A stretch of DNA of 64,000 nucleotides from contig CAUYUJ010001380.1 of the NCBI GenBank assembly GCA_963575745.1, positions 1 to 64,000 of the forward strand, in the 5' to 3' direction. This document shows, one piece after another, positions 24,906-41,207 of the stretch (positions are counted from its first letter, which is position 1; the number at the start of each line of letters is the position of its first letter). Origin of the DNA: Prorocentrum cordatum. Lineage: Eukaryota; Sar; Dinophyceae; Prorocentrales; Prorocentraceae. The position numbers and the translations under genes are program-made. Under the pieces are notes generated by a model. The model saw only the letters and a program-made list of their open reading frames with translations, had not been told where the DNA came from and searched no databases.

Positions 24906-24992
24906 CAAAAATGCCCCGTGAGTCGCTCGTCGGGGGCCGGGGGGGGGGGGTCAAATCGCCGGTTTGGGGCCCCTGGGGGGGGACTATAGGGG

Positions 24993-25118: not shown

Positions 25119-25123
25119 TTATT
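25119..25123. repeat. target-site duplication TTATT, left
   Basis: TTATT immediately before the 5' LTR is repeated at 41493-41497 immediately after the 3' LTR. Five bp is the usual copia target duplication. Confidence 0.85.
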
Positions 25124-25408: not shown

Positions 25409-28400
25409 TGGTAGCGGAGCTGGCTACACTCTCGTGTGGCTGGCTCTCGCTCTGATTCCTGTAATCCACGGCACAACTTGGTGGACTACTACTACGGTGG
25501 AATACCATGTTGCGCCGGCTCTGCGAGGAGCGGAGCCAGTCCGCGATCGAGCTAGCGGGGCAACCCGCGAACTCGAGACGCTCTCTCCTACTTCACTGCG
25601 CTACTTCACTCCCGACTTCCACCAGATGCCAATCGGCAACTCGATCGAGAACGTGGTCACCCTGCGGGGCTACCCGCAGCGGGGCCACCTGCATCCCGTG
25701 CCAGTCAGGCGCCTCACGGCTACTACGCCAGAGCCTGACAAACCACAGCCTAAACCAATCACCGAAGCCGAAATGCACATGCACTGGATTAAGATAACTA
25801 TCTTCGGCATTCTGTGGGTAATAATGGGATGTGCTGTGGGATACATGCGGCAGGGGATGGACGACACGCGTACTACTGGCCCTTCATGGGACCCTGCCGG
25901 TACTACGCCTTTTCGCGAATATGTTCGCGAAGTACATGCATGGTTAAACGTAACGAGCGGCAATATGACACCACCACAACAAGCTGCAGCACTACAACGA
26001 GGCCTTCAAGGTCTTGCTCGTCGTATCGCCATGCAGGTCCCCTCCCAGATCATCAATTATGGTGTAACTGTCAATGGACAGCCAACGGATGCAGTAACAT
26101 ATATACTGTACTTACTGAGCACCAAATTTGAAAATCTGGAAGATGAGCGCCAGCTCAACTCTGGCACTGCCCTTATCGACTTTCGCGTCGAAAGGGGCGA
26201 GCGAATCGACTCAGTGTTAGCTCGATTCGAGATGGCCCGTGACGAGGCTAACTCTGTTGGATTTGTCATCCCCAACTTTCAGATCCTAACGCTGATTCTC
26301 TTCAGAGCGTTAGGCGTTGGCGCGTCACGAGCCCAACACCTGCTGGAGCCCTTTAATCATCAGATGCCCCGAACACAAGCAGACTATGACAGGCTGCTGA
26401 CCAGGATGAGGAACTACGGACATGTCGCCGAGCGCTCTCCTGGCAACATAGCGGGTATCTTCACAGGGCACCACTCACATGCAGGTGTCTACGCCACGAC
26501 TGCGGGGTCACCCGCTGGTCCTGGCGAGCCAAATCCCTGGGCTGACCCAGCCGATATGCCCAACGAGGCCACTGCCCTTTTAGGGCAGACTGGCCAGGCA
26601 TCGGCAGAGGCAGCTGAGGCGAACGCCTGGTCGAACTACTCGCCAGGCGCCGCCTACACTGCAAGCCCGCCCTCGGGCACAACCCTCTGGGGCCAAGCGG
26701 AGTCATCCGCTCAAGGGTCTCAGCCACCCTCACCGTTTGAATCTGGCACTGACACAGACACCTCATCTGACGATGAGCACAATGGCATAGTCTCTGCTGG
26801 TAATGACTATCCAGCGGATGACACTCACCTTTCTGAACAACAAAGAGCGGAAGCCGCTTTTATGGCCTATCGCAAATCAAAACGCCGTTGGAGGCGCTTT
26901 ATGAAGAAACCAGTCAGAAAAGTGAGACGTGCAGTACGCCGACATTTCAAACGATATGGAAAGGGTCGTGGCAAAGGGGGTCGCAGACGCCGTATGCATG
27001 GTAGGGGTATCACTGCTTTCCTCACGTCCTTAACTGATATAGCCTTTGAGGAAGTTCTTATCGGAGGCAAAGGTCGGGGTCACAGGCGGACCTCCGGTAA
27101 GGGAAAAGGGCGGAGGGGCAACCCTAGGGACGCTTCTGGCAATACTATGAAGTGTCATACATGCGGTAGCACAGATCATTTGCGCGATCAATGCCCGAAG
27201 GGGAAAGGAAAGGGATCCGTACATTTGGCTCAAAATTCTTTTATGGATGACATAGACTACATTGACTACGAGTTTTACGTCAATCCAGAAGCGGCTCCCG
27301 CTGCGGGCTCCTCCACGTATTACGTGATGGCCCGCTACGCTGAAGCAACCGTAGCCCTGGAAGACTACGCAGTGACCCTCTTCGACGAGTTCCACGGCTG
27401 GGACGAGGTCGACGAGGTCGCGTTCAATGCTTGGTTCGGTCTTCCAGCGGGGCCACCCGCCGGCGACGAGGTCTCCGAAGCTGAGACCGTCCCGGCGACC
27501 GAGGAAGAGCTCACCGCCGCGCTGGCACCGCAGGTGATTGGCATGCCGTTGCTGCCAGACCTTTCGCGAGCTGGTTCGGAGGCGGGAGACGCTGATGACG
27601 AAATGCGGGGCCATCCCGCGTACTCTGACTCCGAAGAGGCGGAAGATGACTATAAGGACATGCTCCAAGAGCAGGTCGCTGAAGCAATCCGACTCCTGAG
27701 TGCGCCAGCACATCAGCAGATAACCATGAACGACCTGCTGTCGCGCCCAGGGGCTGCACGGCTGCGTCCATACCTGGATTCGGACATGTCGGCACCTCAG
27801 ATGCTGACAGCACTCCAGGCTCTAGCGGGGTCACCCGCCGAAGTGACGCCAGCCGCAACAGCGGGGCCACCCGCTTGGTCTATGGATGTATTTATGCAAG
27901 GTTGTGATCAAATAGACCTTAACGACCTCACGATGGAGCAGTTAAACGACATCGGGTACTTCCGAAGCCCGTATCAACACGTGTTCATGGTCCAGGACAG
28001 CTCAGAGGACTCGGAGGACATGCGCTACGCCAAGAGGGACAGACGACCGTCGCCTCCCCGAGACTCAGAGCATGACGATCAAAGGCCAATGGAACGTGGT
28101 AGTGCGTCAGCGGGGCCAGCCCGCAGGAGGAGCCGTTCAGCTCCCAGACGCCCTACACATGATGCATCGGGCTATCCATACAGTACTGAGCACTCCGTTG
28201 GAGTATCCGCTCAGCATGTGCCGGATTGGTACATCAACTGGTACCCCGGCTATTCGATGGACGTGATCCGCCACTGGTATTCTAAGGAGTACTGCACCAA
28301 AAGGGACGAAACTGGCGTGATAATACGTACCAAGGGTGGCAAGACCAAAACGCCAGAGGCTTGGGACAAAAGGGCTAAGAAACAGGAGATCATCAACGAT

Positions 28401-31400
28401 CGCAAGACATACAGGAAACAAGTATGTCAGTGCGAGCCCTTCAAAGGTCACATGCGCAGTTGTCCGATGGACCGCCCCTCCAGGAGTCCTCATCACGGTG
28501 AGACCCCGTGGAATTGGTCTCATGGAGATGACGCTGGCAACGTCCATGATCCTAATAAGGAGGTCCCTGGAGGAGGAAAGCGCATCACCGAAGCCGATCG
28601 CGTCCCTATGACCGAAGAGGTGGCCAACATCGTCAGGGAAAATTGGGTACAGCTTCCCAATGACCATCGCCTCAAGGAATGGAACCGCCGATTCCATAAA
28701 GAGGCGGGGTCACCCGCAGGATCCAGTAAAGAGGCGGGGTCACCCGCAGGATCCAGCAAAGAAGCGGGGTCACCCGCAGACGCGGCGCCAGCCGCTGGGT
28801 CCGCGGACGACGATTGGATAGCTGTTGCATCTGCTGCTGGGTCCGCCGCCGGCACTGACCACACCGAACTGAATGAAGAATGGGCGGCGGAAGACGGCTC
28901 AGAGAATCCATTCCCTGATGGATGCGCCTGCTGGTACTACAGCTCTTCGGCGCAGAAGTGGTTTTGCACGAGGGTAATTCACCGCCATGAAAATGGCAAG
29001 TACAAGCTGGCCATAAAAGGTACTGCCGACATCGACCAGATGAGGCAGGTCATCCATGATCATGGCCAGCCAGAAGGCCCTCCTAGAGACCCTCCTGGTC
29101 CACAACCGGGCAAGGGCAGCAGACCACCTCCAAGACCTGAAGCCGACTCCTCGTCTTCACCGACTCCTGCGAAAAGGCACCCGTCCAAGAGCCCCGAAGG
29201 CACACAGGGGCGGGCGAAGGCCAGAGGGATCGCCAAGACGGACGACCCTGAGCCGGTAGATCCTCCCGGTCTGTCCGTGACGGAGAGGAGGAAGGCTTTT
29301 GCTGGACCATCGACCCCGATGCCACCGGCGACCCAAGGCGATGTCAAGGATGAAGCTCGCAATCAGCCTAAGGCAGCCTTCCGAGGTGACTGGACTCCAA
29401 CTCTGCATCAGCCGCGCCTTGCACCACGACCAGGTTCGGCACGAATGAAAGCACAGCCGAAGCCCGAAGCTGGGATGAGGTCGGTGCGGGCAGAAGCGGC
29501 CGCCAAGGCTAAGGAGGACAAGGGCTCTGCGGGGCCACCCGCTAAAGCGGCGCCAGCTGCAGCAGCGGGGACACCCGCAGAAGGCACTCTCTCAAGAGAA
29601 GAACGCTTCAGAGTCCTCAAAGAATTTGGCGACCGACAGAAACTAACCGATGATGCAGTTGCTGACCAAGGTCACCCGAACCCTGGCGCGGAGTCATCCG
29701 CTGGAGCTGCCTCGTCAGCCGCAGGCTCTGCTGGGCCACCCGTTAAAGCGCCGCCAGCTGCATTAGCGGGGCCACCCGCACGCGGGCAGCCAGTAATGTC
29801 TGTTCTTAGGAACATCCCTCTGGGAGCCATCGAATACTGGCAAGGCATTGAAGGCAAAGGCCCGAAGCGCACCATAAACCCACGAGTCACTCGAGACGAT
29901 ACGGACCGATACGAGGTCATTAATTGCCCTGATCGTCGTAACTTCGAGTGCCGCAACGACTGGGAACGTGAACAACAAACCGTGGGAAATATGTTGCGAG
30001 ACAGGCCGCCACTACGCGTTGCGCAGCATAAAGCAGAGCTCCTGAAGGTCATGGAGAGGTTCGGCATGGATCCGACTTTGCCGCGCGAAGGGCAAATGAC
30101 CAAGGTGTCAATATGGTTCTCTACAGCCCTACGCCATAGTCCATATTGGAAGGACGGATTCAGCCGACACTTCGAAAAGATCAGCACTTTCGATCCATAC
30201 GATGGCTGGGTTGTTGTTGACGATCTGCTGACAAACTGGACTGAAAATGATCAGTGGAAAGGCTATCGTGAAATGCACGAGGTGCTGATCAAGGGCAGGC
30301 CCCACACGTCATACGTGTATTGGGTGCTGCTAAACTGCTGTGAGATGATTGACCATCACGGCATGCAGAAGGGCAGGCTCCAGATGAAGTGCGTTGAGGA
30401 CAGCATGCTGCTGCCTCCCAGGTTTCGACCAAAGGCACGCAGGCCACAGTACTTCATCAGAGCCACGAACGGCCACAGCAGTCCAGGCATCCACTGTCCC
30501 GAGTCGCTTTATAAGCCGATCACAACATGGATGAAAGAACCAGACGACCCAGTATATTTCATCCACGGGACACAGTGGGAGTATGTCAAGGACATCCTTG
30601 CTAATGGCCTTTCATGCCTCGCACAGGACAACCCTAAAAGGAAGGGGGGGCGCCAATTTGTGCACGGCTGCCCCTACCTCCCGGGCGACCCGAGGATTCA
30701 ATCGGGCATCCGTCCTGACTCGGAGGTGCTCATATTCTGCAGCATCAACAAGATGCTGTCCAGTGGCTTCTCCCTATGGAGATCAGCAAATGACATAGTC
30801 ATGACACGGGGCCACGACGGACGTATACCGCCCGATCATATCCTCCAGATTGTGAGCATTGCGAAATATCGGGTCGGCGAAGCCTGGAGCAATCCGCTGG
30901 CTTATGACAAGTCGCGGAGGCGGGGCCAACCCGCGGACAGGATTCGCACCGATGACTACCTGCCACTTAAAATGTGTGACAGAACTCTGGGTGTAATGGA
31001 AGATCACGCCATGTACCTAAAGGGCTGGACTAAGACGGACGGTCGCCCATTCAATTTGGTCATGACCGAGCAAGATGTTGCTCCACGACCGTACGACACA
31101 CAGACAGTCCTCATGATGAATGCCCAGGAGGACGAGGTCATGCCTGAAGCGGGGCCACCCGCAGGTGCGGGGACACCCGCGGTAGACACCTCGGACGGTT
31201 CATGGCAACAAGTGGTCACACCAGTAGCAACGGTAGCATCTCCTTGGAGGCCGGACCAGCAGACATGGGTCCAGGCCCTCAACAGCTATTTGACACCAGC
31301 CGACGTCTCTGGACTGACCGATCAGCTATATCGTGCTGACCCGTGGGCAGTGCATACAGGTATCCAAGACGCACAGCAGAGGAACCTGCGCACTCCTGCT

Positions 31401-34112
31401 GGGCCACCAGGCGTCCTAGGACCACAACCACAACGCCCTCCGCAGCAAGCTGGAGGTGCGAGGTTTGTCCCTATGGGCGGTTCAGATGGTGGCTCGCCGT
31501 TTCGGACTCCGCCGTCTGAAACGAGCGAGAACAGCTTGTGGCAAAGACTCCAGGCGATTCGCGGGAATCCGGCGCTCGCAGCAGCACTCCAGGCGACCAC
31601 TCCCTTTGGCACTCCGAGGGGTAGTGAAGGAGGAGTGGCTGCGGGGACACCCGCCGAGCGAACGCCTGCGGAGCCACCCGCACACGCGGGGCCACCCGCT
31701 GACGGACAGCAAGGGTCAGACTATGAACGTCGGGCAGCCAACTTAAGAGCACAGGCTACCTTTCTGCAGCAACAAGCTGATAGAGTGCCCAGCCTGTTGC
31801 GGAACCGCAACATAGATGTTACGAATCATGGCGACTTTCGGCCTCTCTGGAGCTGGACTTCTGAAGATGCTCCAAATGCTGATCCCACGAATCCATATCG
31901 ACAGGTGTTTATTCCAGGAATAGCATCACACCCAATATATGGATGGGACAATCATGGACCAGCAGAGGCACAGGCCATGGACGCGCCGATGTACCCGGAG
32001 TACTACGCGCAGATGAATAACACTCCTATGATTGCGGGGCCACCTGCGAACGAATACACTCGGAATCTTGCCAATGAGATGTTTCGTTTGCAGTTTACAC
32101 GAGCGGTCGATGCGCAGTCTATGCCGCACTACGCCTACATGCCCACGCCGACGGACCCCGAGACCGTAGTTCAGCCAGCTGGTCTCGCGGTGCCAGCCGC
32201 TATGGGCAGCATGCCAGACTACATCCGCGACGTGCACAACACGCAGCAAGCGATACTGGCATCTAGGCAGCAGGCTCGGGACAACGCCAGGCTGCGCCAA
32301 CAACGCGCGATCCAGAGAAGGATCGAGCGTGAGACCCAAGCGGGGACACCCGCAGACGCGGGGCCACCCGCTGAACGGACAGATAGACGGCCGCCACCGA
32401 CGCCATATCGGGAGGGCGAAACCACTTTCGAGCGCCAAGCTCGGACTCGCCCAGACGTGCCTGCTCCAGTTATTTCAGACTACAACTTCACACAGTGCCC
32501 AATCTGTATGGACACCTACGAGATGGGCACCATAGTGTGGAGACTGGCGTGTGGGCACTTCTTCCACGATATATGCTGGGATCGTGTTGCACAGCAGCAC
32601 GTCCGCAATCAGCGGCCAGGTGCGCCGAACGAGGCCCCCTGCGCTGTATGTCGTGGGCCGGGCATAGTTATAGCACATTTCCCATATGCTGGACAGCGCG
32701 ACGCTGAGTCAGAACAAGCGCGCCAGCAGGAGAGGTACGTGGCAGATGCCCGGGAAATGCGTCGGCTACGGGAAGCAGTGGAGGCACTAGAGGCTCGAGC
32801 CGCACAATCGGCGGAGCCATCCGCACGTGCCCCAGCTGCACAGGCATACCCCTGGCCAGCGCCAGAGCAAGGCATCCAGATGCCAATCCTGCCTACGCTT
32901 CGAGCACAGGAGCCCCCAGCTGCGGGGCCACCCGCTGAAGCGGCCCCCGCCGCCAAAGCGGGGCCACCCGCAAATGGGCCTCCAAATCCAGGTTTCCTGA
33001 GGGCAATGGAGGCCAACATCAGGCGGAGTGGCAGGAGCGGAGGCGGGACTCGAAGGCCAACTGGATCATCCAGGACCTCACGCGTGGCAAGCCCGGTCAG
33101 CGCTAGGAGCCGGGCAAGCGCTGAGAGCGCGGAGGCAGCCCAGTTCCACACCACATTCATGATCGATATAGAGGGGCTGACCTATGCACGTGACGACACG
33201 GACACGCTGCCGCCAGGAGGTGAATGGATGTCCACACCCTCTGCGAATTATTGGGTTCTCGAACAGGAACCAATTACCGTGGAGGAGCGCCGCCAATATG
33301 AGCAGATGTGGTGCACCGAGTTAACCATGAGTCAATGGGTGCTTGAACAACGCCTGTTGAAAGGCACACTCGGTTCACAGATTACGTACCACACCGATGA
33401 CCATGGTACAATGGCTCTGGCAGCGCGAAATGGGACATTCTTTCCTGACGAAGACGGTATGCCCTGCATCTCGTTCATGCTAGACATTGGCTCCAACGTG
33501 AACATCATTGGAGCCAATACGGCGCGAACCTTCCAGGAGATTATGGCCAGGTACAATCACAGACCTGCCATATGCACCCTGAGCAAGACCCTCTACATCA
33601 ACGGTGTCGGTGAGGGTGCTGCGATATGTCGGAAGATGGGCAACTTCAAGATCGGGGTGCAATACGCCAATGAGGCAAGCCCCCGTATCGAGGAGTATGC
33701 CTCCAACATCGCAGAAGGCTCGGGTGCCAATCTCCCGGCCATCTGGGGCCTAGGAGCCATGGAAGCACGTGACACGATCATCGTGCTGAAGCCAGGCTAC
33801 CAGAAGGTTATCTTCCCCAGCGGTGACTACACCCTGAAGCTGGGAAGGGGTGCCAAGGTCCTGAGGGCGAAGAAAACTCCCTCGGGACATCTCGCGATTC
33901 CCTGCGGTTTGTATGACGGGGCTAAAAGCCAGACGGTCACGAACACCTTCACAATCCGCAGCAGTCGAGATGGCTACACCGAGACGGAGAACGAAGAGGA
34001 CCCCGTCAGTGCGGGGCCACCCGCCGGAGTAAGTGCGGGGCCACCCGCCGGAGTAAGTGCGGGGCCACCCGCCGAGACCACAGCGGGCAACCCGCGACGG
34101 GACAGTCCATGA
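25275..34112 (+). CDS. copia polyprotein 1: capsid, CCHC, Tpt1-like, RING-H2, protease
   Basis: The frame opens at ATG 25275 inside the LTR and reads across the primer binding site for about 2,945 codons; numbering below counts from 25269. Two hydrophobic segments (about residues 53-70 and 175-195) precede the capsid, so a later ATG (for example near 25771) may be the true start. The capsid-like helical region spans about 215-400. A CCHC knuckle, C629-C632-H637-C642, follows. Cys/Trp-rich modules with WYYSSSAQKWFCTRV lie near 1220. A Tpt1/KptA-like domain covers about 1600-1870, a RING-H2 finger 2410-2461 and a retropepsin with DIGS at Asp2739. Linkers carry AGPPA, AGSPA and AGTPA peptides encoded by minihairpins. 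It ends DSP with TGA at 34110-34112, overlapping the next ATG. Confidence 0.85.
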   Translation: MPILSFTPDPMLRLALLLMRYEPKPGIWQRLKRNTYLSLPACFRLGSGAGYTLVWLALALIPVIHGTTWWTTTTVEYHVAPALRGAEPVRDRASGATRELETLSPTSLRYFTPDFHQMPIGNSIENVVTLRGYPQRGHLHPVPVRRLTATTPEPDKPQPKPITEAEMHMHWIKITIFGILWVIMGCAVGYMRQGMDDTRTTGPSWDPAGTTPFREYVREVHAWLNVTSGNMTPPQQAAALQRGLQGLARRIAMQVPSQIINYGVTVNGQPTDAVTYILYLLSTKFENLEDERQLNSGTALIDFRVERGERIDSVLARFEMARDEANSVGFVIPNFQILTLILFRALGVGASRAQHLLEPFNHQMPRTQADYDRLLTRMRNYGHVAERSPGNIAGIFTGHHSHAGVYATTAGSPAGPGEPNPWADPADMPNEATALLGQTGQASAEAAEANAWSNYSPGAAYTASPPSGTTLWGQAESSAQGSQPPSPFESGTDTDTSSDDEHNGIVSAGNDYPADDTHLSEQQRAEAAFMAYRKSKRRWRRFMKKPVRKVRRAVRRHFKRYGKGRGKGGRRRRMHGRGITAFLTSLTDIAFEEVLIGGKGRGHRRTSGKGKGRRGNPRDASGNTMKCHTCGSTDHLRDQCPKGKGKGSVHLAQNSFMDDIDYIDYEFYVNPEAAPAAGSSTYYVMARYAEATVALEDYAVTLFDEFHGWDEVDEVAFNAWFGLPAGPPAGDEVSEAETVPATEEELTAALAPQVIGMPLLPDLSRAGSEAGDADDEMRGHPAYSDSEEAEDDYKDMLQEQVAEAIRLLSAPAHQQITMNDLLSRPGAARLRPYLDSDMSAPQMLTALQALAGSPAEVTPAATAGPPAWSMDVFMQGCDQIDLNDLTMEQLNDIGYFRSPYQHVFMVQDSSEDSEDMRYAKRDRRPSPPRDSEHDDQRPMERGSASAGPARRRSRSAPRRPTHDASGYPYSTEHSVGVSAQHVPDWYINWYPGYSMDVIRHWYSKEYCTKRDETGVIIRTKGGKTKTPEAWDKRAKKQEIINDRKTYRKQVCQCEPFKGHMRSCPMDRPSRSPHHGETPWNWSHGDDAGNVHDPNKEVPGGGKRITEADRVPMTEEVANIVRENWVQLPNDHRLKEWNRRFHKEAGSPAGSSKEAGSPAGSSKEAGSPADAAPAAGSADDDWIAVASAAGSAAGTDHTELNEEWAAEDGSENPFPDGCACWYYSSSAQKWFCTRVIHRHENGKYKLAIKGTADIDQMRQVIHDHGQPEGPPRDPPGPQPGKGSRPPPRPEADSSSSPTPAKRHPSKSPEGTQGRAKARGIAKTDDPEPVDPPGLSVTERRKAFAGPSTPMPPATQGDVKDEARNQPKAAFRGDWTPTLHQPRLAPRPGSARMKAQPKPEAGMRSVRAEAAAKAKEDKGSAGPPAKAAPAAAAGTPAEGTLSREERFRVLKEFGDRQKLTDDAVADQGHPNPGAESSAGAASSAAGSAGPPVKAPPAALAGPPARGQPVMSVLRNIPLGAIEYWQGIEGKGPKRTINPRVTRDDTDRYEVINCPDRRNFECRNDWEREQQTVGNMLRDRPPLRVAQHKAELLKVMERFGMDPTLPREGQMTKVSIWFSTALRHSPYWKDGFSRHFEKISTFDPYDGWVVVDDLLTNWTENDQWKGYREMHEVLIKGRPHTSYVYWVLLNCCEMIDHHGMQKGRLQMKCVEDSMLLPPRFRPKARRPQYFIRATNGHSSPGIHCPESLYKPITTWMKEPDDPVYFIHGTQWEYVKDILANGLSCLAQDNPKRKGGRQFVHGCPYLPGDPRIQSGIRPDSEVLIFCSINKMLSSGFSLWRSANDIVMTRGHDGRIPPDHILQIVSIAKYRVGEAWSNPLAYDKSRRRGQPADRIRTDDYLPLKMCDRTLGVMEDHAMYLKGWTKTDGRPFNLVMTEQDVAPRPYDTQTVLMMNAQEDEVMPEAGPPAGAGTPAVDTSDGSWQQVVTPVATVASPWRPDQQTWVQALNSYLTPADVSGLTDQLYRADPWAVHTGIQDAQQRNLRTPAGPPGVLGPQPQRPPQQAGGARFVPMGGSDGGSPFRTPPSETSENSLWQRLQAIRGNPALAAALQATTPFGTPRGSEGGVAAGTPAERTPAEPPAHAGPPADGQQGSDYERRAANLRAQATFLQQQADRVPSLLRNRNIDVTNHGDFRPLWSWTSEDAPNADPTNPYRQVFIPGIASHPIYGWDNHGPAEAQAMDAPMYPEYYAQMNNTPMIAGPPANEYTRNLANEMFRLQFTRAVDAQSMPHYAYMPTPTDPETVVQPAGLAVPAAMGSMPDYIRDVHNTQQAILASRQQARDNARLRQQRAIQRRIERETQAGTPADAGPPAERTDRRPPPTPYREGETTFERQARTRPDVPAPVISDYNFTQCPICMDTYEMGTIVWRLACGHFFHDICWDRVAQQHVRNQRPGAPNEAPCAVCRGPGIVIAHFPYAGQRDAESEQARQQERYVADAREMRRLREAVEALEARAAQSAEPSARAPAAQAYPWPAPEQGIQMPILPTLRAQEPPAAGPPAEAAPAAKAGPPANGPPNPGFLRAMEANIRRSGRSGGGTRRPTGSSRTSRVASPVSARSRASAESAEAAQFHTTFMIDIEGLTYARDDTDTLPPGGEWMSTPSANYWVLEQEPITVEERRQYEQMWCTELTMSQWVLEQRLLKGTLGSQITYHTDDHGTMALAARNGTFFPDEDGMPCISFMLDIGSNVNIIGANTARTFQEIMARYNHRPAICTLSKTLYINGVGEGAAICRKMGNFKIGVQYANEASPRIEEYASNIAEGSGANLPAIWGLGAMEARDTIIVLKPGYQKVIFPSGDYTLKLGRGAKVLRAKKTPSGHLAIPCGLYDGAKSQTVTNTFTIRSSRDGYTETENEEDPVSAGPPAGVSAGPPAGVSAGPPAETTAGNPRRDSP
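25409..25422 (+). promoter_or_regulatory. tRNA primer binding site
   Basis: TGGTAGCGGAGCTG starts exactly after the LTR. TGGTAGC is the complement of a ...GCUACCA tRNA 3' end, as in initiator Met tRNAs used by many copia elements. The matching dinoflagellate tRNA was not checked. Confidence 0.65.
28704..28795 (+). repeat. 30-bp tandem repeat carrying minihairpins
   Basis: Three copies at 28704, 28734 and 28764, each with one hairpin and an AGGATCCAG(T/C)AAA spacer, followed by a GCGGC-GCCA-GCCGC variant at 28782. Confidence 0.9.
30070..30870 (+). other. Tpt1/KptA-like 2'-phosphotransferase domain
   Basis: The translated segment shows, in order, TALRHSPYW (Arg1622), DGWVVVDDLL, YFIRATNGHS (Arg1731, His1736), YFIHGT (His1766) with VKDILANGL, RQFVHG (Arg1795, His1799), SGIRPDSEVLIF and an SANDIVMTRG...GRIPP end. 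These match the known Tpt1/KptA pattern LRH, DGWxxVxxLL, RxxxGHS, HGT, GL, RxHVH and GxxPPxxI. That family removes an internal 2'-phosphate from RNA using NAD+. The order and key Arg and His residues are kept, so activity is plausible. The spacing between LRH and RxxxGHS is about 50 residues longer than usual. The role in a retrotransposon is unknown. Confidence 0.75.
32496..32651 (+). other. RING-H2 finger in polyprotein 1
   Basis: CPIC (C2410, C2413), ACGHFFHDIC (C2428, H2430, H2433, C2436) and CAVC (C2458, C2461) form a C3H2C3 RING-H2. RING-H2 proteins usually recruit E2 enzymes for ubiquitin transfer. It sits about 280 residues before the protease domain, and a following Arg/Glu/Ala-rich helix looks like a coiled coil. 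Confidence 0.85.
33140..33930 (+). other. aspartic protease (retropepsin) domain
   Basis: FMLDIGSNVNIIG with catalytic Asp2739 is followed by a flap-like INGVGEGAA region and LPAIWGLGAMEARDTII, corresponding to the hydrophobic ILG-type motif of retropepsins. A DIGS in place of the commoner DSGA/DTGA is typical of dinoflagellate copia polyproteins as I know them. Confidence 0.75.
34011..34082 (+). repeat. 24-bp tandem repeat carrying minihairpins
   Basis: Three copies at 34011, 34035 and 34059, each GCGGG-GCCA-CCCGC plus CGGAGTAAGT, just before the end of polyprotein 1. Confidence 0.9.
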
Positions 34113-34504
34113 CCGTCACGACTGATACGTACATTGTCGAGCCGTATCTCGACAAGCAGCTCCTGGAAGACACGACCCGTTTGATCGTGGACAGGACGCT
34201 GAACAGCTGGTGGGAGGGCCAACAGTGTCCCGAGGGGACCTGGCCACATATGAAGGATGCCCTGAAGTCTAAGATATTCTGGGCAGTCCAGGAGGCGGTG
34301 AATAAATGGACGCCTGAGAACCAAGCGGGGCCACCCGCGACACCGCCACCACCACCAAGCTACACGGGCGGAGGCTCGTCGGACTCTGCGGGGCCAACCC
34401 GCGTGGAGATCGTGAGCGTAGCCGCACCAGCGACTCCTGCGGAGCCATCCGCTAACAGCATGCCCCCGAGTCAGACGGCAACGTGGTCACACGACCGCCG
34501 CTGA
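34109..34504 (+). CDS. copia linker frame, 131 codons before TGA
   Basis: The ATG at 34109 overlaps the stop of polyprotein 1 as ATGA. The product starts with a helical segment (TYIVEPYLDKQLLEDTTRLI), then a Pro-rich linker carrying three minihairpins. It ends at TGA 34502-34504 with context TGA CGG GGG. The same frame stays open beyond this stop straight into polyprotein 2, so this is best seen as the N-terminus of polyprotein 2 behind one UGA. Confidence 0.6.
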   Translation: MTVTTDTYIVEPYLDKQLLEDTTRLIVDRTLNSWWEGQQCPEGTWPHMKDALKSKIFWAVQEAVNKWTPENQAGPPATPPPPPSYTGGGSSDSAGPTRVEIVSVAAPATPAEPSANSMPPSQTATWSHDRR

Positions 34505-34513
34505 CGGGGGCAG
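34502..34513 (+). promoter_or_regulatory. in-frame TGA CGG, candidate readthrough site
   Basis: The TGA is followed by CGG GGG and a GC-rich, self-complementary stretch (GGCGGGCGCGCCGGCGGC near 34515-34532). UGA-CGG with a 3' structure is a known class of leaky stop codon in some viruses. It may also be a simple nonsense mutation. Confidence 0.4.
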
Positions 34514-35130
34514 GCGGGCGCGCCGGCGGCGCTCGCTTGCGAAGAGAAGCCGAATACCGGCCTCCTCGCGACATACGTTGGCCGCGCTGAGGCCCGAGAG
34601 GAAAAATATCATTCAAAATGTCTTGTCATCGAAGATATTCGCACAGCTTGCGCTGAACTCCGAACCCGTGGATATATATGCGACCGGATTACCCATAATG
34701 AGGTAATGACTTCAACTGGAACACAGTATTTGGGAAATTTGTTGGCAGGAGACTACAATATGTTGTGGGTGGCCACACCCTCTGATTGGTACGTTCGTAC
34801 TCCAGGAAAGAGGGCGGGACCACATTATCAACGTATACAAAATCTCCTGATCAAAGCGCGTGCTCTGAGAATGCAGATAGTTATCCTGGGGCCACCCGGG
34901 TATTTCTGGAAACAGGGTCCGATCAAAGATGTTATCGAAGATTTGAAGCTAAGCATTATACGAATGAGACTCTGTCATTTCGGTATCAAGTTTGACCGAT
35001 CCAGTAAATATCCCAGTGGTTCTTATATACAAGTTGCTACATCTTGTCCTCATATACCGATAAACTTATGGAAATGTACTTGTGGCTCACACAAGGAGCA
35101 TGATTTGGATTGGTATGGCCAAGATCAGCA
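34505..35130 (+). other. first methyltransferase-like segment
   Basis: Pattern: VIEDIRTACAELRTRG, LWVATPSDWY, VILGPPGYFWK, RLCHFGIKF, PSGSYIQVATS, CTCGSHKEH. This parallels motifs IV-VIII of the second domain (PSC, EQP, DQCTTG, KPT, CxxxH), but no glycine-rich motif I is visible. It looks like a degenerate duplicate; the assignment is tentative. Confidence 0.4.
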
Positions 35131-38100
35131 ACGTGCCGAGTTTCGGTATAAAACTTTGGCTATCATTATTGCACGCTTCCTTGATCAACTCGATAAAGCC
35201 AACATGATCAGGAATGAGCGGAGTGCGGTACACCTCAGCGTGTGTACTCGCGTTGACAAAAAGGTCAGACACTACGTCCAATGTCCACAAAAGGGCCCTC
35301 AATGGGACCATGTTGTTCGTAGAGTCACGACCGACCTGGACACGAATAAGATCGTTCAAGATATCAGAATCCAGGATCAGCCAACTGGGTACAATTATGT
35401 AGCTCCATTACCTGATGGGGTTACAAACATCAGTACTCGGCTATACTGGGAGCCTCCGGCTCCAGTTCTTCATGGCGACGGTGAGTCGCGAAGGCCACGC
35501 CCAAAGCGTGTGACGATCGTCGACGACGATCGATCTCCTCCCCCTTCGATTGAGCGTTGCCAAACGCGACCCACCAACAACCTTCCTGAAATTCCGCCAT
35601 TTCCTGACTTAACAGCGGATTCCTCCGCAGCGGATCTCTCCGCGGAAACTGCGTTGCCCACTGATGCCAGGATAAAACAGAAAGAAAAGCAGAAAGCTGA
35701 CAAAGAGGCCGGCATCAAACCGAAGAAAGTCCCGAAGAAAGTGGAAGACGGTAACGACGACTGTGGAGAGGACCTCAAAGGACTTGACTGCTCCACATAT
35801 TTCAACGACGTTCCTCTTGACGACTCGGACTCGGACAGCGAATCAGAGGACATCTTCATGATGTTACCGGCGGGGCAACCCGCTGACTCACATGCTGATG
35901 TCTTCTCGATGGTCCAGTCATTATGCTACGGCAGAAACAATCAAGTGGACATGCTTGAATTATGTGGGGGCAAGGGTGGTATATCCATATTAGCCTTCAA
36001 GAGGGGACTCTCGTCAGGCGGGAACCTTGACAAGATATCTATGGTTGACCTTGGAAACTCGGAAGTACAAAGAGCAGTCCTCCACTACCTCAAGACTTGC
36101 TTTGTCAAGATCACGATTCTGCAGCCAAGCTGCAGAACTACTGGACTTCCTTCCTATTTCAATGCACAGGTCAATCATGATACGTGGCTTAAACACCACA
36201 AAGAGGACCTGCCTCACATCACGTTCTGTGGAACAGTCGCTCTATTACAAGACGACCTAAGACGTTTCTTTCTCAGGGAACAACCAATGGGCACGTGGGT
36301 GGATGAGATCCAGCCATGGAAGGAACTGGCACAACGCAAGGTCACTTGCCAAACGATTATTGATCAGTGCACGACTGGTCTCAAAGATTCATTTGGACAA
36401 TACATCCGCAAGCCAACACAGATGATGGCAAACAAAGAAGAGTTGTTGGCACCTTTCAGAGGCAAGCGTTGTCCAGGTAATCATGTGCACGCCAATGCTT
36501 GTAACAAAGAACTAGCAAGGGCGGCACAGTATACCTACAGAATGCAGTCACTGATCGTTGATGCGGTGCAAATCGCCAAAGACCTGTTTGCTTACGGTCG
36601 CGATCCATTCGCGAATCGTGAACGCAGCTATGCGTTCGTAACAAACAGTGCTGGCTACGACTTGGACGACCCAACAATCCGGAGACACCCAAACGGAGAA
36701 ATCTGGCGACCACCACCTGGCGGTCTTGGGTGCCCTGGCTGTGTGGACAACAACTACAAGCAATCACCAAAGCACAGCAGGGATCCGAAGATGTGTCGGT
36801 GGTATGATGTTGAACCGTATTACTGGGACTGTCCAAGCTGTAAGAAGGAATATCAGAAGAGCAATCCTCACCACACCAAGATATCTGGCCAATGCAGATT
36901 CGCCGAAAAATGGAAGCTGCCAGATAACTTTGGCCAGCCGCGCCCGGCGGGGCAAGCCGCTCCTGCGGCGCCAGCCGCGGAAGCGGCTCCAGCCGCAGAA
37001 GCGGCGCCAGCCGCAAAAGCGGCGCCGGCCGCGAGAGCGCGCATACGCGCGCCTAGGCCGCCACGGCCTGGCGAGGGCGATCCAACCGCAGGCGCCAGCA
37101 GCCATGACATCACCAGAGCCGAAGGGGCTAATGGTGGCAACACTGGCGCTGGCAGCTCTGACGATCACCGTAGACTGCCACAAGTTGCAGCAAGGCGCGG
37201 ACGCATGGAGGGAGGAGATCCTCCACCACCGCCGCAGCCTCAAGCAGAGCCGAGGCCAAGGCCAAGGCTCCCTGATTGGACTCGCTTCGACGTTCAGCTC
37301 AGCCTCCAAAACCTGCGCAGCTTCGACCCAGCTGTAGTGCAGCGAGAACTCCGCAAACTCCACTTGAGATGGTTTCATGCCAAGGAGCCAAAAATGCGGA
37401 TGATTCTAACCAAGGTTGGTCTGGGTGAAACCCGTTTGAGTCTGATCAAAGGCATTTGTGACTCGTGTAGAGAATGTCGAGCCTGGGACAAACCAGGCAA
37501 CACGGTGATGCCTTCTGTGTCACTGCCAGGACGTTTCAACGAGGAAGTCGAATGTGATCTTTTCTTTTACAAACAGGAACATATTGTTTTTCACATCATC
37601 GACCGTTGTATTCGCTGGGCAGCTGGCACAGAGATTCCTGATAAAGCCATGCATACTGTTCTCGATGCCTATCATACGACTTGGATGCAACATGGCCCTG
37701 CTAAAATCTTATACTCCGATGGGGAAGGAGCACTGAATAATGATACAGCAAAGGCCATCCTTAAGGCTAAGGGAACAGAGCTTCGTATCCGAGCGCGTGG
37801 CCAACACGCCACAACTATCGAAGCTAGGAACGGCATCCTGCGACACCTCTTACACGTGATGGGAGAAGAATTGAATAGATTAAATATTCCTCTCAATTTC
37901 ACTCGTCTCTTACATGAAGCCTTGTTTGCCAGCAACGCATTTACCTTCTACAATGAAGTGTCTCCGTACAATGCGCTGTATGGCAGACAACCAGCTATGC
38001 TTCCCGATTTCCCTGTCTTGGATCATGATCAGTCCGCTGAATCATCAGATCACTCAAGGGAGGAAACAATCAGGAGGGTTAGTCTGGAGGCAATCACGCA

Positions 38101-39433
38101 GGCCACTGCGGTTGCCAAGACGAACAGGGCTCTCCGTACGAAGACTACTGCTACGGGTGAATTTCACTACAAAGAGGGAGATCTCGTGGACTATCATCGC
38201 CCGACCACCACGAAAGACGACTGGGGTGGATGGAGTGGTCCATACCCGGTCATCCGCAACGAACCTGACCGAGGCCAGGTCATCGTGAAGGTCGGCAGTC
38301 GCGAGGTGCGAGTACAGTATCCTGACACACGACACACGCTGTACATCGAAGCACTTATGGTCCGCGAGATAGGATCGGACAATACGGCCCTTCGGACAGT
38401 ATTGGCCTTTATTGCCGGTCTGCCAGCAGGGAAACCCGCCATGACTTTCGGATATCTACCAGCGAAACAGGGTCGGCTGCAGATGACTGCTGCGAGCCGA
38501 CTTTCGCGTAAGGTGCACTTGGCTCTTCAGTGCCTCATACGCAACTACTTTCGTATTGAAAACGTTGTTGCTGTACGACTTGCCAAGAGCCTGACGAAGT
38601 TGCCTGCTGCACCCTATGCAGACAGCTGTACACTAGTGCACTATGATAATGATGTGACCCCTGGTTTTCATTACTATGAAGCTGATGGCACTGCCTTGAA
38701 CATCTATGACATCACAGGATCTACACACTCACGCATCATCCAGTGTCTTAAATCCAGGAAGTCGTCTGCTGGATTTGACCGAGACCTCACTAAGTTTGAG
38801 GAACTCGCTGATGGTCCACCACCAAGCGAGTCACCTCCAGCAGCTGCTCCTGAGGAGCCTCCTACGGATAACGATGGTCGGCTCCCGACCATCATAGAGG
38901 AAACAGAAGAAGATCTGGATGCTTTTGTCTTGAAGTCGTGGTATGCTGAACTGATGGATGACAGAACACTCCTTGAAGCTGACACAGAGGAAGTCATGCA
39001 TACAGTTCCCACATACATGACAGACACACAGTGTGTGTTAGTCTCTACGACCTGTGAAGATGTGCAAGGCCACTTGCCGGAGCGGGGTCACCCGCCAGGA
39101 TACGACATGGACACTTCTTACTACGTTCCCTTATGCTCCACGGATCCGGACAGTAAATATGATCTGGACTCCGATGAGCACGGGAAGTACATCGAGCTCT
39201 GCTTCACAGCAGACATGTCCAAAGTCGTCCTGTCCGAGCAGCAACACCGATTGTTGGATGACAGCAGCGTCACAACTATGCGAGTATACGTTAGTGCTGC
39301 TTCCAAACGTGCCGTGGTCGTCAAGGAAGACGATCTACTCACGAAGGCCGACATCCAAGCAAATCCGGTCAAAGTTTCCAAAGCCCTTTACACAGAATTG
39401 AAGACTTGGCTTGACAACAAATGCTTCAGATGA
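34706..39433 (+). CDS. copia polyprotein 2: methyltransferase-like domains and integrase
   Basis: The frame is open from 34505; the first ATG is at 34706, and numbering uses it as residue 1. Residues 1-150 with the upstream extension form a first methyltransferase-like segment (WVATPSDWY, VILGPPGYFW, MRLCHFGIKF). A second, clearer one spans about 413-640 with LELCGGKGG, QPSCRTTG (Cys476), REQPMGTW and a KPT box. The integrase has an HxxxxH...CxxC zinc part (HLRWFH, CDSCREC) and the DDE triad Asp951, Asp1005 and Glu1039. A 400-residue linker and the start of the RT region follow (ELKTWLDNKCF). It ends at TGA 39431-39433, overlapping an ATG of the next frame. Confidence 0.85.
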   Translation: MTSTGTQYLGNLLAGDYNMLWVATPSDWYVRTPGKRAGPHYQRIQNLLIKARALRMQIVILGPPGYFWKQGPIKDVIEDLKLSIIRMRLCHFGIKFDRSSKYPSGSYIQVATSCPHIPINLWKCTCGSHKEHDLDWYGQDQQRAEFRYKTLAIIIARFLDQLDKANMIRNERSAVHLSVCTRVDKKVRHYVQCPQKGPQWDHVVRRVTTDLDTNKIVQDIRIQDQPTGYNYVAPLPDGVTNISTRLYWEPPAPVLHGDGESRRPRPKRVTIVDDDRSPPPSIERCQTRPTNNLPEIPPFPDLTADSSAADLSAETALPTDARIKQKEKQKADKEAGIKPKKVPKKVEDGNDDCGEDLKGLDCSTYFNDVPLDDSDSDSESEDIFMMLPAGQPADSHADVFSMVQSLCYGRNNQVDMLELCGGKGGISILAFKRGLSSGGNLDKISMVDLGNSEVQRAVLHYLKTCFVKITILQPSCRTTGLPSYFNAQVNHDTWLKHHKEDLPHITFCGTVALLQDDLRRFFLREQPMGTWVDEIQPWKELAQRKVTCQTIIDQCTTGLKDSFGQYIRKPTQMMANKEELLAPFRGKRCPGNHVHANACNKELARAAQYTYRMQSLIVDAVQIAKDLFAYGRDPFANRERSYAFVTNSAGYDLDDPTIRRHPNGEIWRPPPGGLGCPGCVDNNYKQSPKHSRDPKMCRWYDVEPYYWDCPSCKKEYQKSNPHHTKISGQCRFAEKWKLPDNFGQPRPAGQAAPAAPAAEAAPAAEAAPAAKAAPAARARIRAPRPPRPGEGDPTAGASSHDITRAEGANGGNTGAGSSDDHRRLPQVAARRGRMEGGDPPPPPQPQAEPRPRPRLPDWTRFDVQLSLQNLRSFDPAVVQRELRKLHLRWFHAKEPKMRMILTKVGLGETRLSLIKGICDSCRECRAWDKPGNTVMPSVSLPGRFNEEVECDLFFYKQEHIVFHIIDRCIRWAAGTEIPDKAMHTVLDAYHTTWMQHGPAKILYSDGEGALNNDTAKAILKAKGTELRIRARGQHATTIEARNGILRHLLHVMGEELNRLNIPLNFTRLLHEALFASNAFTFYNEVSPYNALYGRQPAMLPDFPVLDHDQSAESSDHSREETIRRVSLEAITQATAVAKTNRALRTKTTATGEFHYKEGDLVDYHRPTTTKDDWGGWSGPYPVIRNEPDRGQVIVKVGSREVRVQYPDTRHTLYIEALMVREIGSDNTALRTVLAFIAGLPAGKPAMTFGYLPAKQGRLQMTAASRLSRKVHLALQCLIRNYFRIENVVAVRLAKSLTKLPAAPYADSCTLVHYDNDVTPGFHYYEADGTALNIYDITGSTHSRIIQCLKSRKSSAGFDRDLTKFEELADGPPPSESPPAAAPEEPPTDNDGRLPTIIEETEEDLDAFVLKSWYAELMDDRTLLEADTEEVMHTVPTYMTDTQCVLVSTTCEDVQGHLPERGHPPGYDMDTSYYVPLCSTDPDSKYDLDSDEHGKYIELCFTADMSKVVLSEQQHRLLDDSSVTTMRVYVSAASKRAVVVKEDDLLTKADIQANPVKVSKALYTELKTWLDNKCFR
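35940..36560 (+). other. second methyltransferase-like domain
   Basis: MLELCGGKGG (motif I-like, 35951 onward), an acidic VDLGN end of the second strand, ILQPSCRTTG (motif IV-like with Cys at 36131), FLREQPMGTW (ENP-like), IIDQCTTG and RKPT, then CPGNHVHANAC. The order follows C5 methyltransferases, but the catalytic motif is PSC in place of PCQ, so activity is uncertain. Confidence 0.6.
37300..38370 (+). other. copia integrase domain
   Basis: Zinc-binding HLRWFH...CDSCREC, catalytic Asp951 (ECDLFF), Asp1005 (YSDGEG) and Glu1039 (TTIEARNG) with 53- and 33-residue spacing, followed by an SH3-like C-terminal segment (FHYKEGDLVDYHRP). All three acidic residues are intact. Confidence 0.9.
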
Positions 39434-41103
39434 CTGACTTGAGCAAAGCGTCTAACATCATGACGTCACGCTACGTATACAAATGGAAGTTTGTCAAGAA
39501 CGAAAAGGGCGAAATGGAAAGGACGATCAGGTTACGCTTGGTACTCCGTGGCTTCATGGACCTTGAAGCCTTTGATGTCGAAACCTTCTCTGGCACGGCA
39601 AGGAGGTCAAGCCAGAGACTGCTCGCAAGTTCTGCTGCATGCAACAAAGCTTGGATCATCGCTTCCCTGGACATCAACATGGCTTTCTTGAAGGGACTGA
39701 CCTATGGCGAGCTCGCCGCGGCAACGGGCGAGAAAGAGCGTGTGGTGTGCTTCACACTACCACCTGGGTCAGCAGCTGTCCTTCGCACGCTGCCAGGCTT
39801 TGAGTCATATGACGAATCAAAGCATTGTCTTCGGTGTCTGAAGCCGGGGACGGGCACGAAGGATGCTCCCAGGGCATTCTCGCTGAAGCTCAGGTCCATC
39901 ACTAGGAGCTTTGGGCTACAGCCTACTTCATACGACGAAGAGTTCGAGATGAGCTCAAACCTCTTGACAGCCAAGCACGTTGATGACATCAATATGACTG
40001 GGAAGGAAGAGGCTATTGACAAGTATGTCAAGTGTGTTGAAGATACGTTTGGGAAGTGCAAACTGAACAAGCACACATACACAAACTGTGCCGTTCGGTA
40101 TAACAAGACCGATGATGGGAGCGTCACTCTTGATCAGGACGAATACATCAAACAGCTTCGTCCTATCACACATCCAGAACTCACAGGAGCTGATCCTGAG
40201 AGCAAAGCGACAAAGACGATTTCTGATATGTTCGTCAGTCTTCGTGGCGCTCTAGCCTATGCGTTGATCACGCAGGTATGGCTGATGGTCTATGTTGTCT
40301 CACTACAACGTATCCAGGAACCGACAAACATCCAGGTACGACGACTAAACGCGGTTACCAGAAAACTACAGGCAGGTCCGAAGAAGATCGTGTATCAAGC
40401 TATGACCCCAACAGGAGAAGTCGACCTGCATAGCGATTCTGGCTATCGTCGTCTCAACGGAGATGAAGACGACGAAGTCAAAGGCTATGGTATCCGCGGG
40501 GCTAACCTGCTGAGGCGTGGCCACACGCAAGCGGGGAAACCCGTCGTGCACCTGGTGGACGCATACTGCAAGTCTCATCGACTGCAGGTGCGTTCGAGCT
40601 ACTCTGCGGAAACACTGGCAGCAGCCCACAACTTGGAAGACTGCTACCCGACCATTGTAACGCTCCACGAGCTACACTCGGGACCATTGACCCCCACACA
40701 GTTAAAGAACATATTGGAAATGGGTGGTCTATGTATCAAAGTCACTCTGACTATTGATGCCGAGTCTGTCTTCAAGTCTTTGTCTAGCAAAGATCTGAAG
40801 AAGCCCACAGAATGTACTCTGCTTGGGCACATTAGCTGGATCCGCCAGATGATGGAGCGCGGAATCGTTGAAAGCGTTCAATGGTGTGACACGCGGGATA
40901 TGACTGCCGATGGTCATACCAAAGGTAGTATTGACCGCGCGTTGCTCCTACAAGTAATGGCCGGCCAGCAATCCTTCAAGCACGAGCTGAAGAAACATAC
41001 ACCGTATAGGGCGGGCAGGTCGTCTCAGGACGGCCCTGCCTCCCGAGCTAGCGGGGAAACCCGCGGGCAGGTGCGCTTTAATAGCGAGGAAACTCGCCGG
41101 TAG
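39421..41103 (+). CDS. copia reverse transcriptase and RNase H
   Basis: The RT starts with SNIMTSRYVYKWKFVKN and RLRLVLRGF (K-x-RLV-x-G pattern), motif A SLDINMAFLKG, and the catalytic box KHVDDI with Asp188 and Asp189 (HVDD in place of the usual YVDD). RNase H follows: HSDSGY, SYSAETLAA, TIDAESVFKS and the C-terminal DMTADGHTKG. The frame overlaps the end of polyprotein 2; the ATGA at 39430-39433 is the natural join, because alignment of the RT start requires a one-base shift there. TAG at 41101-41103 ends it. The last codons and the stop are inside minihairpins. Confidence 0.9.
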   Translation: MLQMTDLSKASNIMTSRYVYKWKFVKNEKGEMERTIRLRLVLRGFMDLEAFDVETFSGTARRSSQRLLASSAACNKAWIIASLDINMAFLKGLTYGELAAATGEKERVVCFTLPPGSAAVLRTLPGFESYDESKHCLRCLKPGTGTKDAPRAFSLKLRSITRSFGLQPTSYDEEFEMSSNLLTAKHVDDINMTGKEEAIDKYVKCVEDTFGKCKLNKHTYTNCAVRYNKTDDGSVTLDQDEYIKQLRPITHPELTGADPESKATKTISDMFVSLRGALAYALITQVWLMVYVVSLQRIQEPTNIQVRRLNAVTRKLQAGPKKIVYQAMTPTGEVDLHSDSGYRRLNGDEDDEVKGYGIRGANLLRRGHTQAGKPVVHLVDAYCKSHRLQVRSSYSAETLAAAHNLEDCYPTIVTLHELHSGPLTPTQLKNILEMGGLCIKVTLTIDAESVFKSLSSKDLKKPTECTLLGHISWIRQMMERGIVESVQWCDTRDMTADGHTKGSIDRALLLQVMAGQQSFKHELKKHTPYRAGRSSQDGPASRASGETRGQVRFNSEETRR

Positions 41104-41207
41104 CGAGGCTACTCGCGCGCCCTTTCCTTGTAGGCAGCCGCTGCTGCTTAGCACTGTTTTTCCGCATAATGTAGAAGTGCGGTGCCTGCTCGTCTCCTCC
41201 CCCTCCG
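41104..41207 (+). other. copia 3' untranslated region
   Basis: About 100 bp between the RNase H stop and the 3' LTR. It starts inside a GCGAG-GCTA-CTCGC minihairpin (41103-41116) and ends in a C/T-rich stretch; no purine tract is visible on the plus strand. Confidence 0.7.

Follow-up and report, generated by a model that had tools for sequence, protein, structure and literature searches.

The stretch of DNA analysed here, 64,000 nucleotides (nt) of the dinoflagellate Prorocentrum cordatum (contig CAUYUJ010001380.1, positions 1 to 64,000; hereafter the window), contains a copia-type long terminal repeat (LTR) retrotransposon that carries about 40 copies of a 14-nt hairpin, a stem of five base pairs (bp) closed by a GNNA loop. 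The host is a copia LTR retrotransposon, as its LTR pair, a target-site duplication (TTATT at 25119-25123 and 41493-41497, bordering the element) and an RVT_2 reverse transcriptase domain together establish. The two LTRs differ by a single mismatch at position 25375, which, with TTATT on both sides, suggests a young insertion. The element and its open reading frames (ORFs) are laid out as follows.

25124-41492, + strand: copia LTR retrotransposon bearing the hairpins (LTR pair, TTATT flanks, RVT_2)
25124-25408, + strand: 5′ LTR, 285 nt
25269-34112, + strand: ORF1, with the Gag region, a Tpt1-like domain, a RING finger and further linkers
26868-27008, + strand: arginine-rich tract of the Gag region, candidate hairpin reader; 56-67% identity in the diverged families D3, D96, D103 and D136
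27150-27200, + strand: CCHC zinc knuckle, a weak Pfam match below the curated cut-off
30201-30812, + strand: Tpt1/KptA-like RNA 2′-phosphotransferase domain (Pfam, 2.7e-15)
32493-32654, + strand: RING finger (Pfam)
34505-39433, + strand: ORF2, aligning with the integrase-containing part of relatives' polyproteins
39415-41103, + strand: ORF3, reverse transcriptase and RNase H part
39430-40197, + strand: RVT_2 reverse transcriptase domain (Pfam, 2e-11)
41208-41492, + strand: 3′ LTR, 285 nt

Hairpins exceed all sequence controls

We scored as a hairpin any perfect 5-bp stem with a 4-nt loop beginning in G and ending in A, and counted the element as 25124-41493. Irrespective of the stem, the + strand of the window holds 49 such hairpins, 46 in the element and 3 outside it. 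When the stem is required to start with GC, 42 lie on the + strand of the element (16.4 kb, 25555-41116) and 2 on its - strand, with none on either strand of the remaining 47,630 bases of the window. The commonest stem recurs with any loop (GCGGG-N4-CCCGC) 27 times in the element and once elsewhere (59458, loop CGGT). An earlier note made from the sequence alone had counted about 40 copies, some with 5-nt loops, and both observations hold; the 5-nt loops lie at 27605, 28110, 30920 and 34388. Chance may account for one or two of the 42. The hairpins, with related imperfect forms, are listed below; a search against Rfam gave no match at the curated score in 24900-41700.

25555-25568, +: GCGGG-GCAA-CCCGC, phase 1
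25664-25677, +: GCGGG-GCTA-CCCGC
25679-25692, +: GCGGG-GCCA-CCTGC, G•U pair
26502-26515, +: GCGGG-GTCA-CCCGC, phase 0
26697-26710, +: GCGGA-GTCA-TCCGC
27447-27460, +: GCGGG-GCCA-CCCGC
27605-27619, +: GCGGG-GCCAT-CCCGC, 5-nt loop
27825-27838, +: GCGGG-GTCA-CCCGC
27861-27874, +: GCGGG-GCCA-CCCGC
28110-28124, +: GCGGG-GCCAG-CCCGC, 5-nt loop
28704-28777, +: three GCGGG-GTCA-CCCGC at 28704, 28734 and 28764 (30-nt tandem)
28782-28795, +: GCGGC-GCCA-GCCGC
28984-28997, +: GCCAT-GAAA-ATGGC, weakly conserved in close copies and possibly a chance hairpin
29529-29542, +: GCGGG-GCCA-CCCGC
29565-29578, +: GCGGG-GACA-CCCGC
29688-29701, +: GCGGA-GTCA-TCCGC
29766-29779, +: GCGGG-GCCA-CCCGC
30920-30934, +: GCGGG-GCCAA-CCCGC, 5-nt loop, phase 2
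31149-31180, +: GCGGG-GCCA-CCCGC at 31149, GCGGG-GACA-CCCGC at 31167
31641-31654, +: GCGGG-GACA-CCCGC
31668-31681, +: GCGGA-GCCA-CCCGC, near-hairpin with A•C
31686-31699, +: GCGGG-GCCA-CCCGC
32034-32047, +: GCGGG-GCCA-CCTGC, G•U pair
32187-32200, +: GCGGT-GCCA-GCCGC, U•G closing pair
32340-32371, +: two with stem GCGGG, at 32340 (loop GACA) and 32358 (loop GCCA)
32811-32824, +: GCGGA-GCCA-TCCGC
32922-32971, +: two GCGGG-GCCA-CCCGC at 32922 and 32958
34011-34072, +: three GCGGG-GCCA-CCCGC at 34011, 34035 and 34059 (24-nt tandem)
34083-34095, +: GCGGG-CAA-CCCGC, 3-nt loop
34325-34338, +: GCGGG-GCCA-CCCGC
34388-34402, +: GCGGG-GCCAA-CCCGC, 5-nt loop
34439-34452, +: GCGGA-GCCA-TCCGC
35554-35567, +: GCGTT-GCCA-AACGC
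35870-35883, +: GCGGG-GCAA-CCCGC
36336-36349, +: GCAAG-GTCA-CTTGC
36965-37014, +: GCGGC-GCCA-GCCGC at 36965 and 37001; overlapping GCCGC-GGAA-GCGGC at 36974
38426-38439, +: GCAGG-GAAA-CCCGC, near-hairpin with A•C
39064-39077, +: GCAAG-GCCA-CTTGC
39082-39095, +: GCGGG-GTCA-CCCGC
40515-40528, +: GCGTG-GCCA-CACGC
40531-40544, +: GCGGG-GAAA-CCCGT, outer G•U pair
41051-41064, +: GCGGG-GAAA-CCCGC
41084-41097, +: GCGAG-GAAA-CTCGC
41103-41116, +: GCGAG-GCTA-CTCGC, its first base being the last base of the ORF3 stop codon

For the earlier note to stand, the hairpins had to exceed what shuffled sequence produces, and they do so by a wide measure in three kinds of control, each run 300 times. Synonymous-codon shuffles of the three coding stretches gave a mean of 2.17 GNNA hairpins (maximum 8) and codon-order shuffles a mean of 1.11 (maximum 5), against 45 observed; first-order Markov sequences gave a mean of 1.15 (maximum 5), against 46 in the element. 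With GC-starting stems the coding stretches hold 41, against a synonymous-shuffle mean of 1.14 and means of 0.1-1.1 over the three controls. Even when GCGGn and GCCGC stems are removed, 10 hairpins are left, against a synonymous-shuffle mean of 1.83 (maximum 8).

The 42 hairpins occupy all three codon phases (31 in phase 0, 5 in phase 1 and 6 in phase 2), as the earlier note had seen at 26502, 25555 and 30920, and the hairpin at 41103 does overlap the final stop codon. Its further claim, that the encoded peptides differ, needs correcting: the phase-0 copies, three quarters of the total, encode similar linkers of the form A(G/E/A)x(P/S/A)A, so that the peptides are less varied than it had implied. 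The hairpin can nevertheless be separated from the peptide by the copies in phases 1 and 2, by the conservation of silent sites and by the diverged families described below, which bears out the note's view of the hairpin, and not the peptide, as what is maintained. Inspection of positions relative to Pfam domains places the hairpins mostly outside conserved enzyme domains.

Hairpins are conserved among close copies and covary among diverged families

We aligned the window element with four close copies from among the matches listed (C1, C2, C83 and C159; 88-98% identity in BLAST pieces) and excluded the copy that defines the hairpins from counts of variation. Whichever copy defines the sites, 1-2% of stem columns vary, compared with 7-12% for the loop middle and 10-14% for flanks of up to 21 nt. 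For sites defined by the window, variable columns number 7/395 in stems, 3/80 at the loop G and A, 8/80 in the loop middle, 170/1202 within 21 nt and 1539/14597 further off. Silent sites are conserved as well: with the defining copy included, 5/124 fourfold-degenerate sites vary within hairpins, 80/386 nearby and 570/2495 outside. Site 31668 carries an A•C mismatch in the window, C1 and C83 (GCGGA-GCCA-CCCGC) and is paired in C2 and C159 (GCGGA-GTCA-TCCGC); at 38426, where the window has an A•C near-hairpin, three close copies carry GCGGG-GAAA-CCCGC. Decay is also seen, with 28782, 28984, 29730 and 38426 broken in one or more close copies, and tandem units vary in number (34035 and 34059 are missing from some). 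In protein alignments of a few sites (38426 and 40515/40531), relatives with other sequence there differ in length by 0 or one residue.

The hairpins are nearly confined to one clade of copia elements, and they persist across its diverged families. Other stems occur in diverged families of the same genome: GCAGG/CCTGC, GCTCG/CGAGC, GCACG/CGTGC and GCCAG/CTGGC. In the elements D3, D96, D103 and D136, perfect GCAGG/CCTGC copies number 2, 7, 8 and 3, respectively, and perfect GCGGG/CCCGC copies 4, 1, 1 and 2; all four also contain GCAAG/CTTGC and GCGTG/CACGC stems and many GCGGG-GNNA-CCTGC copies with a G•U pair. The covariation reported in the earlier note is confirmed at a homologous site by a double compensatory change, GCGGG-GCCA-CCCGC at D3 11881 and GCAGG-GCCA-CCTGC at D136 12535. 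Stem changes in related copies, the note's second ground for refutation, did not refute it.

Two 5-kb stretches upstream of other reverse transcriptase (RT) motif variants, L042 and L044, extend this pattern; the RT motif located copies at 786 + 811 places. The two are 72.8% identical to each other and have 14 and 10 perfect GC-stem hairpins, respectively. The 14 of L042, with nine different stems, compare with a Markov mean of 0.036 hairpins (maximum 1 of 500), and its other strand has none. Most hairpin sites are common to the two stretches. At sites mainly defined by L042, differences amount to 5/148 in stems, 2/30 at the loop G and A and 9/30 in the loop middle, compared with 1270/4513 in the rest, and two of the five stem differences form another double compensatory change (GCAGG/CCTGC at L042 2158, GCGGG/CCCGC at L044 2367). 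A third such stretch, L043 (variant F3), had no homology to the element and no sense hairpins within the 5 kb read.

The search for diverged families covered 14 stretches, all of those around isolated genomic hairpin matches among the matches listed. Four (L022, L027, L029 and L030) lie in the hairpin-bearing elements D3, D96, D103 and D136, which are 26-78% identical to the window element (tblastn pieces, among the matches listed), and nine have no match to it. The other, L031, matches copia proteins of relatives at only 22-26% (314-5012) and has no hairpin beyond the bait; it could indicate the point on the tree from which hairpins are present.

The sense RNA is the selected molecule

The hairpins are strongly biased to the sense strand. 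Counts of the outer frame GC..GG..AC..GC on the sense and antisense strands are 35/1 in the window element, 19/1 in D3, 21/1 in D96, 28/0 in D103, 19/0 in D136, 14/0 in L042 (all 14 with compatible middle pairs) and 10/1 in L044. By comparison, 295,160 both-strand bases that lack close relatives contain the frame 28 times; in 11 of these cases both middle pairs are compatible, and 10 of the 11 are the baits. The same bases hold 18 perfect hairpins, again including 10 baits.

Imperfect copies point to the same strand. Those with one non-Watson-Crick pair comprise 53 G•U, 11 A•C and 32 others on the sense strand of the seven elements, and 2 G•U, 2 A•C and 13 others on the antisense strand. Across the 4.13-Gb assembly, for pair 3-12 and loop GNCA, we counted 16925 G-C (control 995), 2936 A-T (138), 4611 G•U (406) and 755 A•C (295). 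Because G•U and A•C arise by mirror-image changes from a Watson-Crick form, decay of duplex DNA alone should give equal numbers of them; since the copies are not independent, these counts describe rather than test, and their direction is that of the sense RNA. With the excess over controls, the conservation and the covariation, sense orientation and the excess of G•U over A•C argue for selection on sense RNA and not on peptides or mobile palindromes, and we are very confident that these are selected sense-RNA hairpins.

Several observations weigh against this reading or qualify it. Copies and sites share ancestry, 40 of the 53 G•U cases sit at pair 3, and L044 alone has 0 G•U and 2 A•C. When any stem is allowed, sense/antisense counts are 13/3 in D3, 17/0 in D96, 16/6 in D103 and 8/5 in D136. 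Five L042 sites (577, 2694, 2727, 3262 and 3794) are not intact in L044, four through 1-3 changes and one through a gap. The loop in the window element is often GNCA rather than canonical GNRA. In 134-nt contexts, the predicted mean stem probability exceeds 0.5 for 20/42 hairpins (16/42 antisense); this equivocal outcome is due in part to neighbouring arms that can swap partners. Any protein that reads the hairpins would need to hold them in their local form. For the choice of reader, discussed next, it also counts that the arginine-rich tract lies within a generally basic stretch, which could bind RNA without specificity, and that L042 and L044 do not cover this tract.

A candidate reader and alternative explanations

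The hairpins are short, repeated and mostly sense, they keep pairing and the loop G and A, and the loop middle is free, a pattern that suits many small binding sites more than one structure. The unit may be written approximately as 5′-GCNNG-GNNA-CNNGC-3′, in which pairing and the first G and last A of the loop matter and the middle pairs are fairly free. We infer that the hairpins could serve as repeated binding sites for an RNA-binding protein encoded by the element itself, most likely Gag, acting through the arginine-rich tract (RRWRRFMKKPVRKVRRAVRR) and the CCHC knuckle that comes next in the Gag region and is matched in D3, D96, D103 and D136. Through many small contacts, Gag would recognise its own long RNA and package it; the sites seem to be placed wherever the polyprotein can accommodate them, linkers above all. 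We favour by a modest degree the explanation that a sense RNA with dozens of copies of one unit is bound by an element-encoded protein, likely Gag; our judgement is evenly balanced on whether Gag recognition or packaging may be the hairpins' role.

The most serious alternative, which we consider unlikely, is that a host protein or the element's Tpt1-like domain reads the hairpins to control the fate of the RNA (stability, export, translation or RNA repair) rather than its packaging. Selection on sense RNA does not by itself name the reader, an RNA-modifying domain is unusual for such an element, and each of the six diverged elements examined that extend into that region has a match to the Tpt1-like domain. 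Enzymes of the KptA/Tpt1 type are, however, known for 2′-phosphates and not for hairpin recognition, and a host reader alone would leave unexplained the background level of the unit outside the elements (18 per 295,160 both-strand bases, 10 of them baits).

It is improbable that the hairpins set the tempo of translation between domains or help frame changes. Many do lie in linkers between conserved domains, by inspection of their positions against Pfam domains, but tempo control has no need for a fixed loop G and A or for GC ends; moreover, some hairpins are inside conserved stretches (40515 and 40531), and 41103 crosses the stop codon into the untranslated region. Quite improbable, too, is a role as single-stranded DNA or in reverse transcription (pausing or template switching), with template switching perfecting the stems. 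The hairpins would form in complementary DNA as well, and template switching between arms can yield compensatory changes without selection. Correction of one arm by the other would not keep the loop pattern and the GC ends the same in nine different stems, however, nor freeze silent sites, and a DNA-strand effect is rejected by the sense-strand excess of G•U over its mirror image A•C.

The earlier note had likened the hairpins to the palindromic elements known from ORFs in Rickettsia. In favour of selfish DNA units that spread by insertion are the near-identity of 14-mers found at several sites and in more than one phase, the short tandems at 28704 and 34011 and the absence of 34035 and 34059 from some close copies. 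We nevertheless reject mobile palindromes, a very improbable explanation here: the ten stretches without a close relative and the remainder of the window yielded no such family, almost every hairpin is in sense orientation, most sites are common to families 73% identical (L042 and L044), and no gap of cassette size was seen at the few sites inspected in protein alignments. Finally, it is extremely improbable that hairpin-like words are an accidental product of linker repeats in the protein (AGxPA) or of base composition, even with 31/42 copies in phase 0 encoding similar small-residue linkers, since the three kinds of shuffle reject chance and composition, the synonymous shuffles (mean 1.14 GC-stem hairpins against 41) and frozen silent sites reject peptide repeats, and relatives show other stems with other peptides.

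Relatives in metagenomes and hairpins in other genomes

We collected 93 relative proteins, mostly from metagenome sources, with one named Polarella glacialis, one Pyramimonas and one Amphidinium. Linkers of the metagenomic relatives carry p-x-G-[ND]-y-f peptides (among them HGNV, HGDV, RGNV and RGNA), often at non-homologous places, and such peptides are consistent with an encoded hairpin such as GCACG-GCAA-CGTGC. A case in point is L042 4410 (GCACGGAAACGTGC), where a GCACG-GAAA-CGTGC hairpin lies in an open frame that reads THGNVH. After conserved-domain cases (RAWQK-type and HGNPTGK-type) were dropped, 54 cases were counted, 28 of them undecidable. For the outer pair, a purine-ending codon before the unit is followed by a C/T-starting codon after it in 18/22 (background 51/166), and a pyrimidine-ending codon by an A/G-starting codon in 4/4 (Fisher p 0.0047); for the middle pair, H/R against V,M-type/A,T-type gives p 0.013, with 6 incompatible H cases. 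Both associations support such encoded hairpins, though this evidence is indirect and weaker, and the HGNV-type linkers suggest that the hairpin code may be more widespread in plankton.

A hairpin pattern search of viral contigs gave no matches, and an RT profile search of them gave one stretch, which was not confirmed. A search of genome contigs found 11 bacterial stretches with GCGGG hairpins of their own, which we take as unrelated to those of the copia elements. Five of the bacterial stretches (L001, L002, L005, L006 and L008) are from metagenome-assembled genomes of Ruminococcus and Treponema. The Ruminococcus genome has tandem GCGGG-GTCA-CCCGC units on four contigs, and the Treponema genome 12 GCGGG/CCCGC hairpins with varying loops and 21-nt spacing; both are probably convergent.

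Other features of the element and window

ORF1 and ORF2 are in different frames with a stop between them, and ORF2 and ORF3 are in different frames with a slight overlap; in the relative P0081, the ORF2-ORF3 part is read through in one frame. ORF2 had no match in a Pfam profile search, and its putative integrase is assigned by context: in protein alignments with relatives that use a single frame, it falls ahead of the RT. An NCBIfam profile search found nothing. Both the RING finger and the Tpt1-like domain have matches in the six diverged elements. KptA/Tpt1 enzymes act on 2′-phosphates, according to the accessible part of PMC6333775, and in the accessible parts of the open-licence literature we found no report of such a domain within a retrotransposon. 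Ahead of the 3′ LTR, where one would expect a polypurine tract, 41150-41207 is rich in pyrimidines (CTCGTCTCCTCCCCCTCCG).

Four P. cordatum database proteins share pieces with ORF1 at 94-100% identity. In the predicted P. cordatum proteins P0095, P0097 and P0098, the same ORF1 pieces occur inside otherwise different genes, ending at window position 28286 and restarting at 30045, as if copies of the element served as exons whose splice sites are fixed. Directly after the element, 41585-46027 has two blocks of 77-nt tandem repeats; between them lies a region of repeats 9-12 nt long, with a strong GC skew. Further on, in 51482-57358, matches to P0096 (24-46% identity) flank several gaps; by eye, P0096 resembles a repeated mobile-element polyprotein and may include a recombinase-like part.

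Discussion

The lambdoid boxB RNA read by N also combines a 5-bp stem, a GNRA-like loop and an arginine-rich peptide reader. It differs in having a pentaloop and in occurring once or twice, at nut sites, and the reader of the copia hairpins is only proposed. Rickettsia palindromic elements are inserted units within coding sequence, and copies of that kind would be expected in unrelated host genes or spacers; none were found in the ten stretches without a close relative or in the rest of the window. Inverted repeats also lie inside coding sequence in the mitochondria of Nematomorpha, where they are long, up to 284 bp (accessible part of PMC6649704). The copia hairpin is unlike both in being a 14-nt unit at shared sites, sense-oriented and nearly confined to one clade. 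To our knowledge, there is no precedent for a hairpin unit that is both explicit and evolving in an LTR retrotransposon. We found no such hairpins in LTR retrotransposons in the accessible parts of the open-licence literature, which does not imply their absence from print, and the accessible part of PMC11453091 makes no mention of 'hairpin' or 'palindrom'.

The nearest known kind is the dispersed packaging signal, described for enterovirus E (PMC7793301) and phage MS2 (PMC4751978) in the parts of those papers available, and the hairpin set would hence be a variant of it. As in those single-stranded RNA viruses, where many short stem-loops across the coding genome are proposed to be read by capsid protein, many similar stem-loops lie along the genomic RNA (42 perfect hairpins, 25555-41116), and their structure is conserved between relatives beyond the protein code. 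The viral sites are degenerate and were found by selection experiments, whereas here an LTR retrotransposon holds about 40 copies of one explicit, covarying unit. Ty1, also a copia-type element, has a Gag that binds and packages its own RNA, and it is described with a packaging signal region and a 5′ pseudoknot rather than dozens of one hairpin, as far as the accessible part of PMC8396678 goes.

According to that same part of the Ty1 paper, the choice of RNA by LTR retrotransposons is unsettled even for Ty1 (PMC8396678). Here, explicit, countable and evolving RNA sites stand beside a candidate reader within the same element, which opens recognition to simple binding and compensation experiments. 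The element is also a case of dual coding on an unusual scale, in which one 14-nt RNA unit, about forty times over and in all reading phases, shapes polyprotein linkers. We tentatively suggest that a clade of copia elements in dinoflagellates, and perhaps in other plankton, may write a multivalent RNA code of about 40 GCNNG-GNNA-CNNGC units per element that is read by the arginine-rich region of Gag, and that family-specific stems and loops could act as a tag for self-recognition among hundreds of co-resident copies.

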